Part shown: positions 1,767 to 10,568 of the stretch, piece after piece | How positions within the stretch are numbered: the first letter of the stretch is position 1 | How the letters are laid out: every line of letters starts with the position of its first letter | Assembly: GCF_002305895.1 (NCBI RefSeq) | Contig: NZ_CP022203.1 | Location: 2,086,501 to 2,150,500 of the forward strand | DNA from: Corallococcus macrosporus DSM 14697 | Lineage (GTDB): Bacteria; Myxococcota; Myxococcia; Myxococcales; Myxococcaceae | Direction of reading: 5' to 3' | DNA: 64,000 nt | Notes under the pieces: generated by a model | What the model was told of the DNA's origin: nothing | What the model saw: the letters and a program-made list of their open reading frames with translations, nothing else | Databases searched by the model: none | Position numbers and translations under genes: made by a program

Positions 1767-2504
1767 ATGAGCCCGCCCGGGTTGACGGCCGAGCAACTTC
1801 AACAGCAGGTGCATTCGCTGGGGGAGTGGTTCCACAACCTGGACCTGCATGGCGTGCAGACGGCGCCGCGGCATCCGCTGGGCGACTTCCCCGCGGTGTT
1901 CTGGAGGACCTTCCAGCGGGCCTTCCCCACGGACCTGCGGGGCAGGTCCGTCCTCGACATCGGCTGCAACGGTGGCTTCTACAGCATCGAGATGAAGCGG
2001 CGGGGCGCCGCGCGCGTGGTGGGCATCGACAGCGACGCGCGCTACCTGGCGCAGGCCCGGCTCGCCACCCAGGTCCTGGGCGTGGACGTGGAGCTGCATC
2101 AGCTCGACGTGTACGACGCGGGCGCGCTGGGGGAGAGGTTCGACGTCGTCCTCTTCATGGGCGTCCTCTACCACCTGCGCCACCCCCTGCTCGCGTTGGA
2201 CCTGCTCCACGAACACGTGGTGAAGGACCTGCTCATCTTCCAGACGATGGAGCGGGGCGGCACGCAGGCGGGGCCGGCCGCGGAGGACTACGCCATCACC
2301 GAGCGCTCCGCCTTCGAGCGGCCGGACTTCCCGAAGCTGCACTTCATCGAGCACCGCTACGCCGGTGACCCCACCAACTGGTGGGTGCCCAACGCCGCGT
2401 GCACGGAGGCCATGCTCCGCTCCGCGGGCTTCTCCGTGCTGGACCGGCCCGCGCGGGAAATCTACCTGTGCCAGCGAAGCACGCGCCCGGAGGTGCTCCA
2501 GTGA
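1767..2504 (+). CDS. SAM-dependent methyltransferase of the saccharide locus
   Basis: This 245-residue class I methyltransferase carries V-L-D-I-G-C-N-G-G-F-Y-S at about residues 62-73, the glycine-rich SAM-binding motif I. It is followed by an acidic residue after strand beta2 (V-G-I-D-S-D) and a post-motif L-Y-H-L-R-H-P-L-L-A-L-D segment. I recall similar proteins annotated as TIGR04290, usually beside glycosidase, dehydrogenase and glycosyltransferase genes as here, but cannot verify this. Its stop overlaps the start of the glycosidase (GTGA), so the two are translationally coupled. Probable role: methylation of a sugar or aglycone in the locus. The acceptor is unknown. Confidence 0.8.
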   Translation: MSPPGLTAEQLQQQVHSLGEWFHNLDLHGVQTAPRHPLGDFPAVFWRTFQRAFPTDLRGRSVLDIGCNGGFYSIEMKRRGAARVVGIDSDARYLAQARLATQVLGVDVELHQLDVYDAGALGERFDVVLFMGVLYHLRHPLLALDLLHEHVVKDLLIFQTMERGGTQAGPAAEDYAITERSAFERPDFPKLHFIEHRYAGDPTNWWVPNAACTEAMLRSAGFSVLDRPAREIYLCQRSTRPEVLQ

Positions 2505-3388
2505 TTGAAGCGGTGAAGCTGTGGAACGAGCCCAACAACCTGTCGCACTGGGACTTCGGGCTGGACGCGGACTGGAGCATCTTCTCCCGGATGGTGCGGC
2601 TGGCGGGCGCGGCGGTGCGCTCGGAGAACGCGCGCCTGCCGCGCGTGCTGGGCGGCATGGCGCCCATTGATGTCTCCTTCCTCCGCCGCATGGAGGCGCA
2701 GGGGGCCCTGGACGAGGTGGACGTCGTCGCGGTGCACGGCTTCCCGCTGGACTGGAACCACTGGCAGTTGGATGAGTGGCCCCAGCGGCTGGAGGAGATT
2801 CGCGCCGTGTCACGCCACCGCGTCTGGGTGACGGAGGTGGGCGTGTCCACCTTCGGCGCGGAGGAGGTGCAGGAGTTCGGCCTGCGCCGCACCGCCGAGC
2901 TCCTGCTGGGCCGGGTGGAGCGCGTGCACTGGTACAGCCTCTATGACCTGCCCAAGGCGTGGCCCGCGACCACACGTCACCGGGAAGCGGAGGGCTCGTC
3001 GTACTACCGCCACTTCTACATGGGGCTCTTGCGCGAGGACGGCTCGCCGAAGCGCGCCATGCGTCACTTCGCGGACTACACACCCCAGCTCGGCATCTGC
3101 CAGTGGTTCCACTTCGAGGACCACCGCCTGGATGACGCGGTGGCGTGGCTCCGGAAGATGGGGGTGCGCAAGCTGCGCACGGGCCTGAGCTGGGCGGACA
3201 GCCACCGGCCCGGCGCGGAGGCGTGGTTCGACCAGCAGATGCGCGCGCTGGACGGCTTCGACGTGACGCTGACGTACTGCTTCACCCCGGGCTCGTGCGG
3301 CCTCACGGACCACCACACCAGCCCGCCGCGGCAGGTGGAGGAGTTCGCGGACTTCTGCGCGCGGATGACGCGCCGGTACGCGCGGTGA
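2501..3388 (+). CDS. Glycoside hydrolase-like TIM barrel, apparently circularly permuted
   Basis: The GTG start overlaps the methyltransferase stop; an in-frame extension upstream lies entirely within that gene. The 295 residues look like a clan-A glycosidase (beta-xylosidase/GH39-like). The acid/base motif L-W-N-E-P-N is at residues 7-12 (Glu10) and the nucleophile motif V-T-E-V-G at 110-114 (Glu112). Unusually, Glu10 stands at the very N-terminus, where strand beta4 of a barrel is expected. The C-terminal third supplies segments that look like strands beta1 to beta3: F-H-F-E-D-H-R near 203, L-R-T-G-L-S-W-A-D near 225, and V-T-L-T-Y-C-F-T-P near 255. It probably acts on or recognises the glycoside built by the neighbouring enzymes. 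Confidence 0.75.
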   Translation: MIEAVKLWNEPNNLSHWDFGLDADWSIFSRMVRLAGAAVRSENARLPRVLGGMAPIDVSFLRRMEAQGALDEVDVVAVHGFPLDWNHWQLDEWPQRLEEIRAVSRHRVWVTEVGVSTFGAEEVQEFGLRRTAELLLGRVERVHWYSLYDLPKAWPATTRHREAEGSSYYRHFYMGLLREDGSPKRAMRHFADYTPQLGICQWFHFEDHRLDDAVAWLRKMGVRKLRTGLSWADSHRPGAEAWFDQQMRALDGFDVTLTYCFTPGSCGLTDHHTSPPRQVEEFADFCARMTRRYAR

Positions 3389-3435: not shown

Positions 3436-3978
3436 TCAGTCCTGGCGGAGGTGGCGGTAGGCAATGGCGGCCAGCGCGTCGAAGCCGGGCACGTCCCAGG
3501 GCACCTCGCGTGAGGCGCGCAGCGCCTGGGTGTACGCGATGAAGGCGGAGAGCTGCTCGGGGCTGGGGGACACGCGGCCGCGGCGGTCCTTGGCGAGCGA
3601 CAGCGCCTCCAGGGGCGAAAGCCCTCCCTCGACCAGGACGCAGAGCGCCAGCAGGGCGCTGCGCCCGATGCCGTGCTCGCAGTGGATGAGCACCTTCTCT
3701 CGCCGGGCCAGGCGGGCACGGACCCAGGCCACGCCGTCGTGAATCAGGGGCAGCCGGATGGCGCACATGTCCTGCGTGGGCAGGTGGAGGAGGGTGATGC
3801 CGTGCTGGCGAAGCACCTGCTCGTCGTCGCAATCCTCGACGCGCACGTCCACCACGGAGCGGATGCCAAGCTGTCCCGCGAGGTAGGCCGCGGCCTCCAT
3901 GGGATAGCGGCCGCCCACCGCGAGCGACGGCGTCATGGCGTCCAGGTCGAGCTCCCACGTCTGTGTCATTCCCAGCAC
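3436..3978 (-). CDS. Dual-specificity/tyrosine protein phosphatase
   Basis: This 180-residue protein has the cysteine phosphatase signature H-C-E-H-G-I-G-R-S (C-x5-R; Cys100 and Arg106). A plausible general-acid Asp70 lies in L-P-T-Q-D, and an N-terminal A-V-G-G-R segment is typical of dual-specificity phosphatases. It is cytoplasmic, with no signal or membrane segment. It lies on the opposite strand inside an otherwise plus-strand saccharide locus, transcribed divergently from the dehydrogenase gene. Tyrosine phosphatases often regulate polysaccharide export, but no tyrosine autokinase is visible here, so a link is only suggested by position. ATG codons at 3978 and 3969 are both possible starts. 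Confidence 0.85.
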   Translation of the reverse strand: MLGMTQTWELDLDAMTPSLAVGGRYPMEAAAYLAGQLGIRSVVDVRVEDCDDEQVLRQHGITLLHLPTQDMCAIRLPLIHDGVAWVRARLARREKVLIHCEHGIGRSALLALCVLVEGGLSPLEALSLAKDRRGRVSPSPEQLSAFIAYTQALRASREVPWDVPGFDALAAIAYRHLRQD

Positions 3979-4290: not shown

Positions 4291-5259
4291 ATGTCGGACG
4301 GGATGATGAGGGCGGCGGTCGTCACGGGGCCCGGTGGGACGCGGGTGGACCGCGTCGCCCGGCCCGAGCCCGGTCCTGGGGCCGTGCGCGTTCGGATGGA
4401 AGGCTGCGGCGTGTGTGGCTCCAACCTGCCGACCTGGGAGGGCCGCGACTGGTTTCGCTATCCCCTGAAGCCCGGGACGCCCGGCCACGAAGGCTGGGGC
4501 GTGGTGGACGCCGTGGGGAGCGGGGTGGCGGAGCTGCGCGTCGGAGACCGGGTGGCCACGCTCTCGTCGGCGGCCTTCGCGGAGTATGACGTGGTGGACG
4601 CGGCCTCGGCCGTGGTGTTGCCCTCCGCGCTCGCGGGCAAGCCCTTTCCGGGAGAGCCCCTGGGCTGTGGCGTGAACATCTTCCGCCGCGCCGACCTCCA
4701 GGCGGGGCAGACGGTGGCCATCATCGGCATCGGCTTCCTGGGCGCGGTGGTGACGCGGCTCGCGGCGAACGCGGGCGCGCGCGTGCTGGCCATCTCCCGG
4801 CGTCCCTTCGCGCTGGAGCTGGCCCGGGCCCATGGCGCCACCGAGTGCATCCCCCTGGATGACCACGGCCGCGTCATCGAGCGCGTGAAGGCCCTCACCG
4901 GGGGCGCCCTCTGCGACCGCGTCATCGAGGCCGTGGGCGCGCAGTGGCCGCTCGACCTCGCGGGTGAGCTCACGCGCGAGCGGGGCCGGCTCGTCATCGC
5001 GGGCTACCACCAGGACGGGCCCCGGCAGGTGGACATGCAGCTCTGGAACTGGCGGGGCCTGGACGTCATCAACGCCCACGAGCGGGACCCGCGCGTGTAC
5101 GTGGAGGGCATCCGGCTCGCGGTGGAGGCCGTGGCCTCCGGCGCGCTGGACCCCTATCCCCTCTTCACCCACCACTTCCGGCTGGAGGAGCTGGGCCGCG
5201 CCTTCGAGGCCCTGCGCTCCCGGCCGGACGGTTTCCTCAAGGCCCTGGTCACCCCATGA
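4291..5259 (+). CDS. Zinc-type alcohol dehydrogenase (MDR family)
   Basis: This 322-residue medium-chain dehydrogenase has G-C-G-V-C-G-S-N with zinc-ligand Cys42, G-H-E-G-W-G with His66 and Glu67, and a Rossmann motif G-I-G-F-L-G at 146-151. The four-cysteine structural-zinc loop is missing, so this is the short form. The ATG at 4291 is preceded by GGAGG about six bases upstream. The stop overlaps the start of the oxidoreductase gene (ATGA). Pairing with a Gfo/Idh/MocA enzyme is typical of sugar-modification or inositol-type pathways. It probably oxidises or reduces a sugar or polyol intermediate. Confidence 0.85.
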   Translation: MSDGMMRAAVVTGPGGTRVDRVARPEPGPGAVRVRMEGCGVCGSNLPTWEGRDWFRYPLKPGTPGHEGWGVVDAVGSGVAELRVGDRVATLSSAAFAEYDVVDAASAVVLPSALAGKPFPGEPLGCGVNIFRRADLQAGQTVAIIGIGFLGAVVTRLAANAGARVLAISRRPFALELARAHGATECIPLDDHGRVIERVKALTGGALCDRVIEAVGAQWPLDLAGELTRERGRLVIAGYHQDGPRQVDMQLWNWRGLDVINAHERDPRVYVEGIRLAVEAVASGALDPYPLFTHHFRLEELGRAFEALRSRPDGFLKALVTP

Positions 5260-6254
5260 GCGCGCCCGCGATGCGCCGTCCCCGGCTGGGCTTCCTGGGC
5301 GTGGGCTGGATTGGCCGCCACCGGATGGAGGCCCTGGTGCGCGAGGCGCCGGTGGAGGTGGTGGGCGTGGCGGACCCCTCCGAGGACGCCGCGGAAGCGG
5401 CGCGGGCGCTCGCGCCGGGCTGCGCGCGGGTGGACTCCCTGGACGCGCTGCTCGCGCTGGGCCTGGACGGGGTGGTCATCGCCACGCCCAGCGCCGTCCA
5501 CGCCGAGCAGTCCATCCAGGCGTTGGAGCGCGGGGTGGCGGTGTTCTGCCAGAAGCCGCTGGGACGCACGGCCCGCGAAGTCGAACGCGTGGTGGACGCG
5601 GCGCGGAAGGCGGACGTGCTGCTGGGCGTGGACTTCAGCTACCGCTACGCGCAGGGCCTGCGCGCGCTGCGGGCGCATCACCAGTCCGGCGCGTTGGGGC
5701 AGGTGCACGCGGTGAACCTCGTCTTCCACAACGCCCATGGCCCGGACAAACCGTGGTTCTACGACCCGGCGCTCGCCGGGGGCGGCTGCGTCATGGACCT
5801 GGGCATCCACCTGGTGGACCTGGCGCTGTGGGTGCTCGACTTTCCCGCCGTGCGCCGGGTGAGCAGCCAGCGCTTCGCGCAGGGACGGCCGCTGCGTGGC
5901 CGCGAGGAGGCCGTGGAGGACTACGCCGCCGCCCTGCTGGAGCTCGAAGGCGGCGCCGCCGTCCAGCTCGCCTGCTCCTGGAAGCTGTCGGCCGGCTGTG
6001 ACGCCGTGATTGAGGCGTCGTTCTACGGAACGGGCGGGGGCGTGTCGTTCCGCAACGTGAATGGCTCCTTCTACGACTTCACGACGGACGCCTTCCGGGG
6101 CACCGAGCGCGTGCGGCTGGCCGGGCCTCCGGACGGGTGGGGCGGACGGGCCGCCGTGGACTGGGCCCACCGCCTGGCGCGAGGCGAGCGCTTCACGCCG
6201 GACAACACGCGGTTGATTCAAGTCGCCGACACGCTCGACAGGCTCTACGCCTGA
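5256..6254 (+). CDS. Gfo/Idh/MocA family NAD(P)-dependent oxidoreductase
   Basis: The N-terminal Rossmann motif L-G-V-G-W-I-G-R-H is near residues 14-22. It is followed by A-T-P-S-A-V-H and C-Q-K-P-L-G, the family's E-K-P motif with Gln in place of Glu but the lysine kept. The C-terminal half carries G-G-G-C-V-M-D-L-G-I-H, the substrate-binding and catalytic histidine region. At 332 residues it has the usual length. It overlaps the preceding dehydrogenase by four bases. Likely an oxidoreductase acting on a sugar ring hydroxyl for the glycan of this locus; the exact reaction cannot be told. Confidence 0.87.
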   Translation: MSAPAMRRPRLGFLGVGWIGRHRMEALVREAPVEVVGVADPSEDAAEAARALAPGCARVDSLDALLALGLDGVVIATPSAVHAEQSIQALERGVAVFCQKPLGRTAREVERVVDAARKADVLLGVDFSYRYAQGLRALRAHHQSGALGQVHAVNLVFHNAHGPDKPWFYDPALAGGGCVMDLGIHLVDLALWVLDFPAVRRVSSQRFAQGRPLRGREEAVEDYAAALLELEGGAAVQLACSWKLSAGCDAVIEASFYGTGGGVSFRNVNGSFYDFTTDAFRGTERVRLAGPPDGWGGRAAVDWAHRLARGERFTPDNTRLIQVADTLDRLYA

Positions 6255-8352: not shown

Positions 8353-9474
8353 ATGAAGCAGCGACAGATTCTCATCACGGGCGGCGCGGGCTTCATCGGC
8401 TCGCATCTGGCGGATGCGCTCCTGGCCCGGGGGCACCGCGTCCGGGCCCTGGATGCCCTGGTGCCCCAGGTCCACGGCGAGGCACGCCAGCGCCCGGAGT
8501 ACCTGTCACCCGACGTCGAGCTCGTGGTGGGGGACGTGTGTGACGGGGACAAGGTGCGCCAGGCCCTCGACGGCGTCGACGCCGTCTTCCACTTCGCGGC
8601 GGCGGTGGGCGTGGGCCAGAGCATGTACGAGGTGGCCCACTACACGGCGGTGAACAACCTGGGCACCTCCGTGTTGATGGAGGCGCTCATCGAGCACCCC
8701 GTCGAGCGGCTCGTGGTGGCCTCCAGCATGAGCGTCTACGGAGAGGGGCTGTCGCGCGCGCCGGACGGCCGCCGTGTCCCCGGCGGGCAGCGGCCGCTGG
8801 AGCAGCTCTCGGCGGGCAAGTGGGAGCTGGAGGGACCCGCGGGCGAGCCCCTCACGCCCGTGGCGACACCGGAGTCCAAGCCGCCCGAGCTCTCCTCCGT
8901 CTACGCGCTGTCCAAGTTCGACCAGGAGCGGCTGTGCCTCATCCTGGGCCGCGCCTACGACATCCCCACCGTGGCGCTGCGCTTCTTCAACGTCTACGGC
9001 CCCCGGCAGGCGCTCTCCAATCCCTACACCGGCGTGCTCGCCATCTTCGGCGCGCGGCTGCTCAACGGGAGCCCGCCGCTCGTCTTCGAGGATGGGCTGC
9101 AGCAGCGGGACTTCGTCAACGTGCGGGACGTGGCGCGCGCCTGCGCGCTGGCGCTCGACGCGGAGGACGCGGTGTCGCGGGTCATCAACGTGGGCAGCGG
9201 CCGCGCCATCACCGTGAGGGAGGTGGCCCGGGCGCTGGCGGAGGTGATGGGGCGGCCCGGCCTCCGCCCCGCGGTGACAGGCCGGTATCGCATGGGCGAC
9301 ATCCGCCACTGCTTCGCGGACATCTCCCTGGCGAGGGACCTGCTGGGTTACGCACCCGAGGTCACCTTCCACGACGGGCTCACCGAGCTGTCGTCGTGGC
9401 TGGAACACCAGGTGGCGACGGACCGCGTGGCCCAGGCGCGCGCGGAACTCGAGGCACGAGGGTTGACCGTATGA
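8353..9474 (+). CDS. NAD-dependent nucleotide-sugar epimerase/dehydratase (extended SDR)
   Basis: The 373-residue protein opens with the NAD-binding motif T-G-G-A-G-F-I-G-S-H. It has H-F-A-A-A-V-G, S-S-M-S-V-Y-G-E and the active-site Y-A-L-S-K (Tyr-x3-Lys), followed by R-F-F-N-V-Y-G-P-R. This is the pattern of UDP- or dTDP-sugar 4-epimerases and 4,6-dehydratases. A 40-residue insertion precedes the catalytic Tyr. It overlaps the next epimerase gene by four bases (ATGA). The roughly 200 bases upstream, after the ABC exporter, hold no gene and may contain an internal promoter. Confidence 0.87.
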   Translation: MKQRQILITGGAGFIGSHLADALLARGHRVRALDALVPQVHGEARQRPEYLSPDVELVVGDVCDGDKVRQALDGVDAVFHFAAAVGVGQSMYEVAHYTAVNNLGTSVLMEALIEHPVERLVVASSMSVYGEGLSRAPDGRRVPGGQRPLEQLSAGKWELEGPAGEPLTPVATPESKPPELSSVYALSKFDQERLCLILGRAYDIPTVALRFFNVYGPRQALSNPYTGVLAIFGARLLNGSPPLVFEDGLQQRDFVNVRDVARACALALDAEDAVSRVINVGSGRAITVREVARALAEVMGRPGLRPAVTGRYRMGDIRHCFADISLARDLLGYAPEVTFHDGLTELSSWLEHQVATDRVAQARAELEARGLTV

Positions 9475-10568
9475 GCGCGGCGGAGCCTTGGACGGGGGAG
9501 GGCGGCAGGACGGTCATCTTCGGTGGGGCGGGCTTCATCGGCTCCAACCTCGCGGACCATTACCTGTCCGCCGGACGCACCGTGCGCATCGTCGACAACC
9601 TGACGCGGCCGGGCGTGGTGCACAACCTCCGCTGGCTCCAGGCCCGGCACGGCGCCCGGTTGGAGGTGATGACGGCGGACGTGCGGGACGCCCAGGCGGT
9701 GAAGCAGGCCGTGGCCGGCGCCACCCAGGTCTTCCACTTCGCGGCCCAGGTGGCGGTGACGACGAGCCTGGAGGTCCCCGTCACCGACTTCGAGGTCAAC
9801 GCCGGCGGCACCTTGAACGTGCTGGAGGCGCTGCGCGCCATGGAGCGGCCCGCCCCGCTCGTCTTCACGTCCACCAACAAGGTCTACGGGGGCATGCCGG
9901 GCGTGGAGCTGGTCCAGGGCCAGCGCCGCTATGAGCCCCGGGACACGCGCCTGCGCAGCCAGGGCGTGGACGAGGCCTGCCCGCTGGACTTCGAGAGCCC
10001 CTATGGCTGCTCCAAGGGCGCGGCGGACCAGTACGTGCTGGACTACGCGCGGGCCTACGGGCTGAGGACGGTGGTGTTCCGGATGAGCTGCATCTACGGG
10101 CCCCGGCAGTTCGGCACCGAGGACCAGGGCTGGGTGGCGCACTTCCTCCTGCGCACGCTCGAAGGCCAGCCCCTGACGCTCTACGGGGATGGCAAGCAGG
10201 TGCGGGACATCCTCGACGTGCGGGACCTGGTGGACGCGCTGAGCCTGGCGCAGCAGCACATGGGGCGGCTCAAGGGCCAGGCCTTCAACATGGGCGGCGG
10301 CCCCACGCGGGCGGTGAGCCTGCTGGAGCTGCTGGGCCTCATCTCGCAGCGCACGGGCCTGCGCCCCGCCATCCATTTCGAGGACTGGCGCACGGGAGAC
10401 CAGCGCTACTACGTCTCCGACACCCGGAAGTTCCAGGCGGCGACGGGGTGGGCTCCGCGGGTAGGGGTTCGCGAGGGCGTGGACCGGCTCCACGATTGGT
10501 TGCGGACGCTGGTGCGGGAGCGGTCGGCCACGGGGCTGGGGGCGGAACGTGAAGTCCACGCGGGCTAG
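9471..10568 (+). CDS. NAD-dependent epimerase, CDP-paratose 2-epimerase-like
   Basis: A second extended SDR of 365 residues. It has F-G-G-A-G-F-I-G-S-N, S-T-N-K-V-Y-G and S-P-Y-G-C-S-K-G-A-A-D-Q-Y (catalytic Tyr-x3-Lys). The S-T-N-K-V-Y-G and Y-G-C-S-K-G-A-A-D-Q-Y pair is typical of the CDP-paratose/tyvelose 2-epimerase group. It is translationally coupled to the previous epimerase, suggesting that the two act in one nucleotide-sugar route. Substrate identity is inferred from family resemblance only. Confidence 0.87.
   Translation: MSAAEPWTGEGGRTVIFGGAGFIGSNLADHYLSAGRTVRIVDNLTRPGVVHNLRWLQARHGARLEVMTADVRDAQAVKQAVAGATQVFHFAAQVAVTTSLEVPVTDFEVNAGGTLNVLEALRAMERPAPLVFTSTNKVYGGMPGVELVQGQRRYEPRDTRLRSQGVDEACPLDFESPYGCSKGAADQYVLDYARAYGLRTVVFRMSCIYGPRQFGTEDQGWVAHFLLRTLEGQPLTLYGDGKQVRDILDVRDLVDALSLAQQHMGRLKGQAFNMGGGPTRAVSLLELLGLISQRTGLRPAIHFEDWRTGDQRYYVSDTRKFQAATGWAPRVGVREGVDRLHDWLRTLVRERSATGLGAEREVHAG

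Follow-up and report, generated by a model that had tools for sequence, protein, structure and literature searches.

Genes at the locus and the ends of the barrel gene

The window analyzed here, a 64,000-nucleotide stretch of the Corallococcus macrosporus DSM 14697 genome, includes at 2501-3388 (+) an ORF for a glycosidase-like (β/α)8 barrel of 295 aa. Its homologues, profile searches and an AlphaFold2 (AF2) model indicate a permuted strand order, β4-β8 followed by β1-β3. The gene begins with GTG, in a GTGA overlap of 4 bases with the stop codon of the preceding gene (1767-2504, +), a conserved neighbour that encodes a TIGR04290 family methyltransferase (394 bits against a cut-off of 300). Further along the same strand are a zinc-binding dehydrogenase (4291-5259, +), a Gfo/Idh/MocA oxidoreductase (5256-6254, +) and two SDR epimerase/dehydratases (8368-10505, +), and the neighbourhood also contains glycosyltransferases. 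The second SDR (9492-10505) belongs to the type found fused, in other genomes, to an N-terminal standard-order barrel.

The initial annotation, made from the letters alone, read this gene as a natural circular permutation of a glycosidase TIM barrel and took the GTGA overlap to fix the start, so that the protein would not be a truncated piece of a longer one. Comparison with the 80 nearest homologues, from Myxococcota, Acidobacteriota, Bacteroidota, Pseudomonadota, Verrucomicrobiota, Planctomycetota, Thermodesulfobacteriota and others, upholds this placement of the start and shows that the ends are common to the family. All 80 share the N-terminus of the barrel protein, most of them opening with M-[I/V]-[E/D]-[A/S], and several have an in-frame stop 1-4 codons 5' of the start. 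The C-termini lie at R-R-Y-A or close by, or are extended by tails, most of them 9-26 residues long. Among the 53 loci with a methyltransferase gene on the same strand as the barrel gene, 36 show an overlap of 1-16 bases between the barrel start and the methyltransferase stop, and in 22 of these it measures exactly 4 bases. No extension that might supply β1-β3 lies 5' of the N-terminus in any of the 80 members of the permuted family; such an extension had been named at the outset as an observation that would speak against a permutation. When the 60 distinct genomes behind 61 of the 80 loci were searched whole with rotated profiles (see below), the permuted gene, split at its native termini, was present in every one of them. 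The common start, the stops upstream, the coupled starts and the permuted order in 60/60 genomes show that the termini at the new break are native, rather than artefacts of gene calling or assembly.

In one relative from the same family (L090:5042-5332; G142:C1:1519541-1519828) the permuted barrel is reduced to residues 199-294. The frame of 97 aa that encodes them lies directly 3' of what appear to be the opening ~20 codons of the methyltransferase gene. It looks like a deletion remnant that joined the methyltransferase and barrel genes.

Strand order and standard-order relatives

The nearest solved relative by sequence profile is PslG of Pseudomonas aeruginosa (CAZy GH39; PDB 4zn2, 5bx9), a protein of the polysaccharide (Psl) pathway. 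It differs from the barrel protein in its standard strand order and in its chain of 416 residues, the permuted protein having 295 residues and no signal peptide. A family profile in natural order matched PslG in two swapped pieces that together scored 30.5 bits, profile positions 198-293 falling on PslG chain 22-128 and positions 2-163 on chain 131-300. A profile of 11 family members rotated by 193 residues, so as to begin at residue 194, aligned to PslG in a single stretch (profile positions 7-269, PslG chain 25-304; 45.1 bits, E 6.9e-11). A scan of rotations against 12 standard-order relatives described a smooth curve with its optimum at residues 191-194, where the mean best-domain score was 127.5 bits; the natural order, with a mean of 68.7 bits, was near the bottom. 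A doubled profile likewise aligned in one piece, which started near residue 191-200 of its first copy and ran on into the second. Doubling a single sequence brought no gain for PslG in a phmmer search of the PDB, and profiles were therefore needed.

The closest relatives with standard order form the N-terminal domain of fusion proteins, encoded in frames of ~680-900 codons, in which an SDR enzyme akin to dTDP-glucose 4,6-dehydratase follows. The rotated profile matched these fusions in several phyla as single contiguous stretches of 105-218 bits. In BLASTP comparisons with the fused Dyadobacter protein L113, residues 3-192 aligned at 38% identity (E 1e-34) and residues 196-295 at 37% (E 8e-19), in swapped order; a second Dyadobacter fusion, L105, gave the same swapped arrangement (residues 3-192, E 2e-31; C-terminal third, E 6e-18). 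Because the two halves match independently, swapped and far beyond chance, the order of the matches is not a product of the pseudo-symmetry of the barrel. Circular permutation is firmly supported by these alignments together with the predicted structure, and the initial reading was right in substance.

Relatives with the standard order, both SDR-fused and others, were sought and found, in the same genus (G121, G129, G135) as well as in genomes of Bacteroidota, Verrucomicrobiota, Acidobacteriota and Proteobacteria. The Dyadobacter fusions are ~33-38% identical to the barrel protein in both halves, and together with RHE_RS22270 of Rhizobium etli p42b they occur in the same type of cluster, differing in their standard order, in their position N-terminal to the SDR and in the frequent loss of the catalytic Glu residues. 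Eight genomes carry both the fusion and the permuted gene on a single contig, ~4-11 kb apart. In R. etli p42b, the fusion RHE_RS22270 is part of a TIGR04290 cluster in which no free-standing barrel gene is annotated. In Bradyrhizobium sp. 195 the barrel gene is of the permuted kind and the SDRs are encoded separately.

In a maximum-likelihood tree built on rotated sequences, the permuted proteins form one group (branch 96/88) and the fused standard-order proteins form a clade (100/99); these two are joined at 97/95, apart from the other standard-order proteins. On this tree the permuted proteins have one origin, with the fused clade as their sister. The direction of change was likely from standard to permuted, likely rather than proven since the standard-order outgroups are distant and several branches are long. 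The permutation is old and has been kept across many bacterial phyla.

Putative catalytic residues and predicted fold

The acid/base motif that the initial annotation located at the N-terminus is present as W8-N9-E10-P11-N12-N13, and the nucleophile motif that it expected among the segments β5-β8 as T111-E112-V113-G114. Glu10 (2528-2530, +), the putative acid/base, aligns with Glu165 of PslG, and Glu112 (2834-2836, +), the putative nucleophile, with Glu276. In PslG these residues are the acid/base and the nucleophile, respectively, and the latter has been trapped covalently in a crystal (PMC11912335). The offset between the PslG chain index and the published numbering, counted by hand, is 26 and fits both residues. 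All 28 key positions that were checked are invariant in the permuted rows; besides E10 and E112 they comprise 26 more, including Arg226, His79 and Trp144. Clan GH-A is recognized by an Arg at β2, Asn-Glu at β4, a Glu at β7 and an aromatic residue at β8. The corresponding residues here, R226, N9-E10, E112 and W144, are all invariant and align with those of the standard-order relatives.

Because it is permuted, the protein is poorly captured by family models and by sequential structure searches. Its partial match to PF11790 (Glyco_hydro_cc) scored 15.8 bits against a gathering cut-off of 21; for the Dyadobacter homologue L023 the score was 25.4 bits. The Pfam GH39 model did not match in either natural or rotated order, though the profile match to PslG, a GH39 member, had an E value of 6.9e-11, and no NCBIfam model was found for the protein in either order. 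Phage records yielded no homologue. In public records, homologues go under the names "hypothetical protein" and "beta-xylosidase", the latter with no experimental basis known to us.

Nine of the 13 fused standard-order relatives lack the equivalent of Glu10, of Glu112 or of both, which suggests that such barrels became binding domains. The losses occur in L087, L088, L089, L106, L114, L115, L116, L118 and L119, with E10 replaced by K, Q or H and E112 by Q, A or S.

The permuted barrel might itself be a non-catalytic glycan-binding or scaffold protein, as most of its fused relatives may be; the Glu losses among these relatives speak for such a role, and the place of the gene within a biosynthetic cluster would suit it as well. 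We regard this as rather unlikely, because permuted sequences from different phyla keep both Glu residues and the remaining clan GH-A residues without exception.

The AF2 model of the 295-aa protein, computed from an alignment of 55 rows, is a closed eight-stranded TIM barrel (mean pLDDT 87.7, pTM 0.89) with its strands in the order proposed from the letters, β4-β5-β6-β7-β8-β1-β2-β3, and helices between them. At the N-terminus is the β4 equivalent (residues 2-7; 2504-2521, +), which aligns to PslG from chain 131 onward. It is followed by β5 (48-50), β6 (75-79), β7 (107-113) and β8 (142-145), spanning 2642-2935 (+). The new α8-to-β1 junction, placed at residues 191-194 (3071-3082, +) by the optimum of the rotation scan, coincides with the termini or a domain border in standard-order relatives. 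Toward the C-terminal end, the model places β1 (197-200), β2 (224-230, with the invariant Arg226) and β3 (254-260) at 3089-3280 (+), and helix α3 (279-293; 3335-3379, +) closes the chain. This helix would lead into β4 in the standard order, and the rotated profile crosses that α3-β4 joint without interruption, both in PslG and in the SDR-fused barrels. The C-terminal third thus corresponds, as first suspected, to β1-β3 and the helix that leads toward W-N-E-P-N, with 34-37% identity by BLASTP to β1-β3 of the closest standard-order relatives.

In VIA alignments the full chain (1-295) matched intact TIM barrels of widely different types, with Z scores of 11-13. The best Foldseek and VIA-align matches were unspecific TIM barrels, with GH39 absent among the rows listed; these aligners are sequential and the chain is permuted, so they cannot pick the true family. 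The matches support a barrel fold, without amounting to positive structural proof of GH-A kinship. Two probable active-site loops, residues 11-15 (PNN-S) and 156-165 (ATTRHREAEG), both largely invariant, have pLDDT values below 50 and may become ordered only with a substrate or partner.

These loops, poorly placed in a monomer, are an indirect hint at a different arrangement, in which the motif order is real and the active barrel forms between two chains, the β1-β3 of one completing the β4-β8 of the other. We find such a strand or domain swap very unlikely, as a single chain is already predicted to close into a barrel, with confident modelling around the α8-β1 joint, and aligns along its full length to intact barrels. 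The partial, sub-threshold Pfam match would fit a standard-order glycosidase truncated to β4-β8, its C-terminal domain being unrelated, or a longer protein whose start was misplaced, but the homology of the C-terminal third to β1-β3 and the shared, coupled starts with stops just upstream leave this with hardly any probability.

We thus favour, with a probability of roughly 85%, a permuted clan GH-A-type (GH39/PslG-like) barrel of single origin that is likely a cytoplasmic retaining enzyme. Its chain would begin at β4, run to β8 and continue with β1-β3, the break falling at the α3-β4 joint and the old termini being joined by a short linker after α8. The permutation would have occurred once, ahead of the family's dispersal among many phyla. 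Its starting point was probably a standard-order barrel, similar to the one still found fused to an SDR, that underwent duplication or fusion and was trimmed. The duplication step is presumed; no tandem-duplicate intermediate of the barrel was seen. The Glu10/Glu112 pair would be reassembled from the same structural positions in the closed, predicted fold, and for this reason retaining two-step cleavage or transfer of a β-glycoside is the most likely chemistry, judging from the residues.

Gene neighbourhood and possible pathway

Neighbours were counted at 80 loci with ~4 kb of flank on each side. A TIGR04290-type methyltransferase was present at 54 of them, a PF13524 glycosyltransferase at 44, a nucleotidyltransferase at 43, a histidine phosphatase at 34 and SDR enzymes at 23-25. 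The barrel gene is thus usually coupled to the TIGR04290 methyltransferase in glycan-type clusters. Inositol-3-phosphate synthase, often accompanied by the histidine phosphatase, was found at 24/80 loci (e.g. L130:7499-9222, L132:4634-6330); since it adjoins the barrel gene, it hints that the glycan of the cluster contains or is built on inositol.

A chain that starts inside a core strand leaves no signal peptide, and this, together with the coupling to the methyltransferase in glycan-biosynthesis clusters, makes the cytoplasm the most likely site of action and a biosynthetic intermediate the most likely target. The barrel protein is most likely an active cytoplasmic retaining β-glycosidase or transglycosidase of a biosynthetic pathway, a substrate and reaction that we infer. 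A more far-reaching proposal, which we offer tentatively and consider doubtful as a whole, is that a once-only permutation in clan GH-A gave rise to a widespread active enzyme, while its SDR-fused and often dead sister serves as substrate-binding partner in an undescribed, possibly inositol-containing, glycan pathway.

The TIM barrel is among the commonest enzyme folds, and its natural permutations in glycosidases are known mainly from GH70 and GH13. GH70 glucansucrases have a permuted barrel whose chain starts at α3/β4 (PMC4919382), nearly the same place as here; the likeness is one of the topology of the break alone, and these are secreted multidomain α-transglucosylases of another clan. MalS α-amylase (GH13 subfamily 19) is another natural permutation (PMC10223318), also in another clan, with domain order permuted around the C domain. 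No GH13 or GH70 entries appeared among the matches of the Pfam and profile searches with the barrel protein. Our search of a library with few subscription papers found no report of a permutation in clan GH-A or GH39, which does not prove priority, and nothing on TIGR04290 or TIGR04295. With GH70 and MalS on record and no clan GH-A report found, the present case is an event of an already known type, in another clan, and the clusters here also contain standard-order sisters. The protein is small and single-domain, its permutation is old and spread over many phyla, and the sisters provide a natural experiment on the effect of permutation on folding and catalysis. The gene also points to an unstudied glycan cluster.

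Two further genes were observed in or near these clusters. A B12-binding radical SAM protein of TIGR04295 is a recurrent member of the cluster (L044:7275-8561, L130:3706-4998, L132:13515-14801); the genome of the window has no TIGR04295 match above the family cut-off. Directly 3' of the barrel gene, on the opposite strand (3436-3978, -), lies a dual-specificity phosphatase-like gene, and similar proteins are encoded at 9 of the 80 homologous loci.
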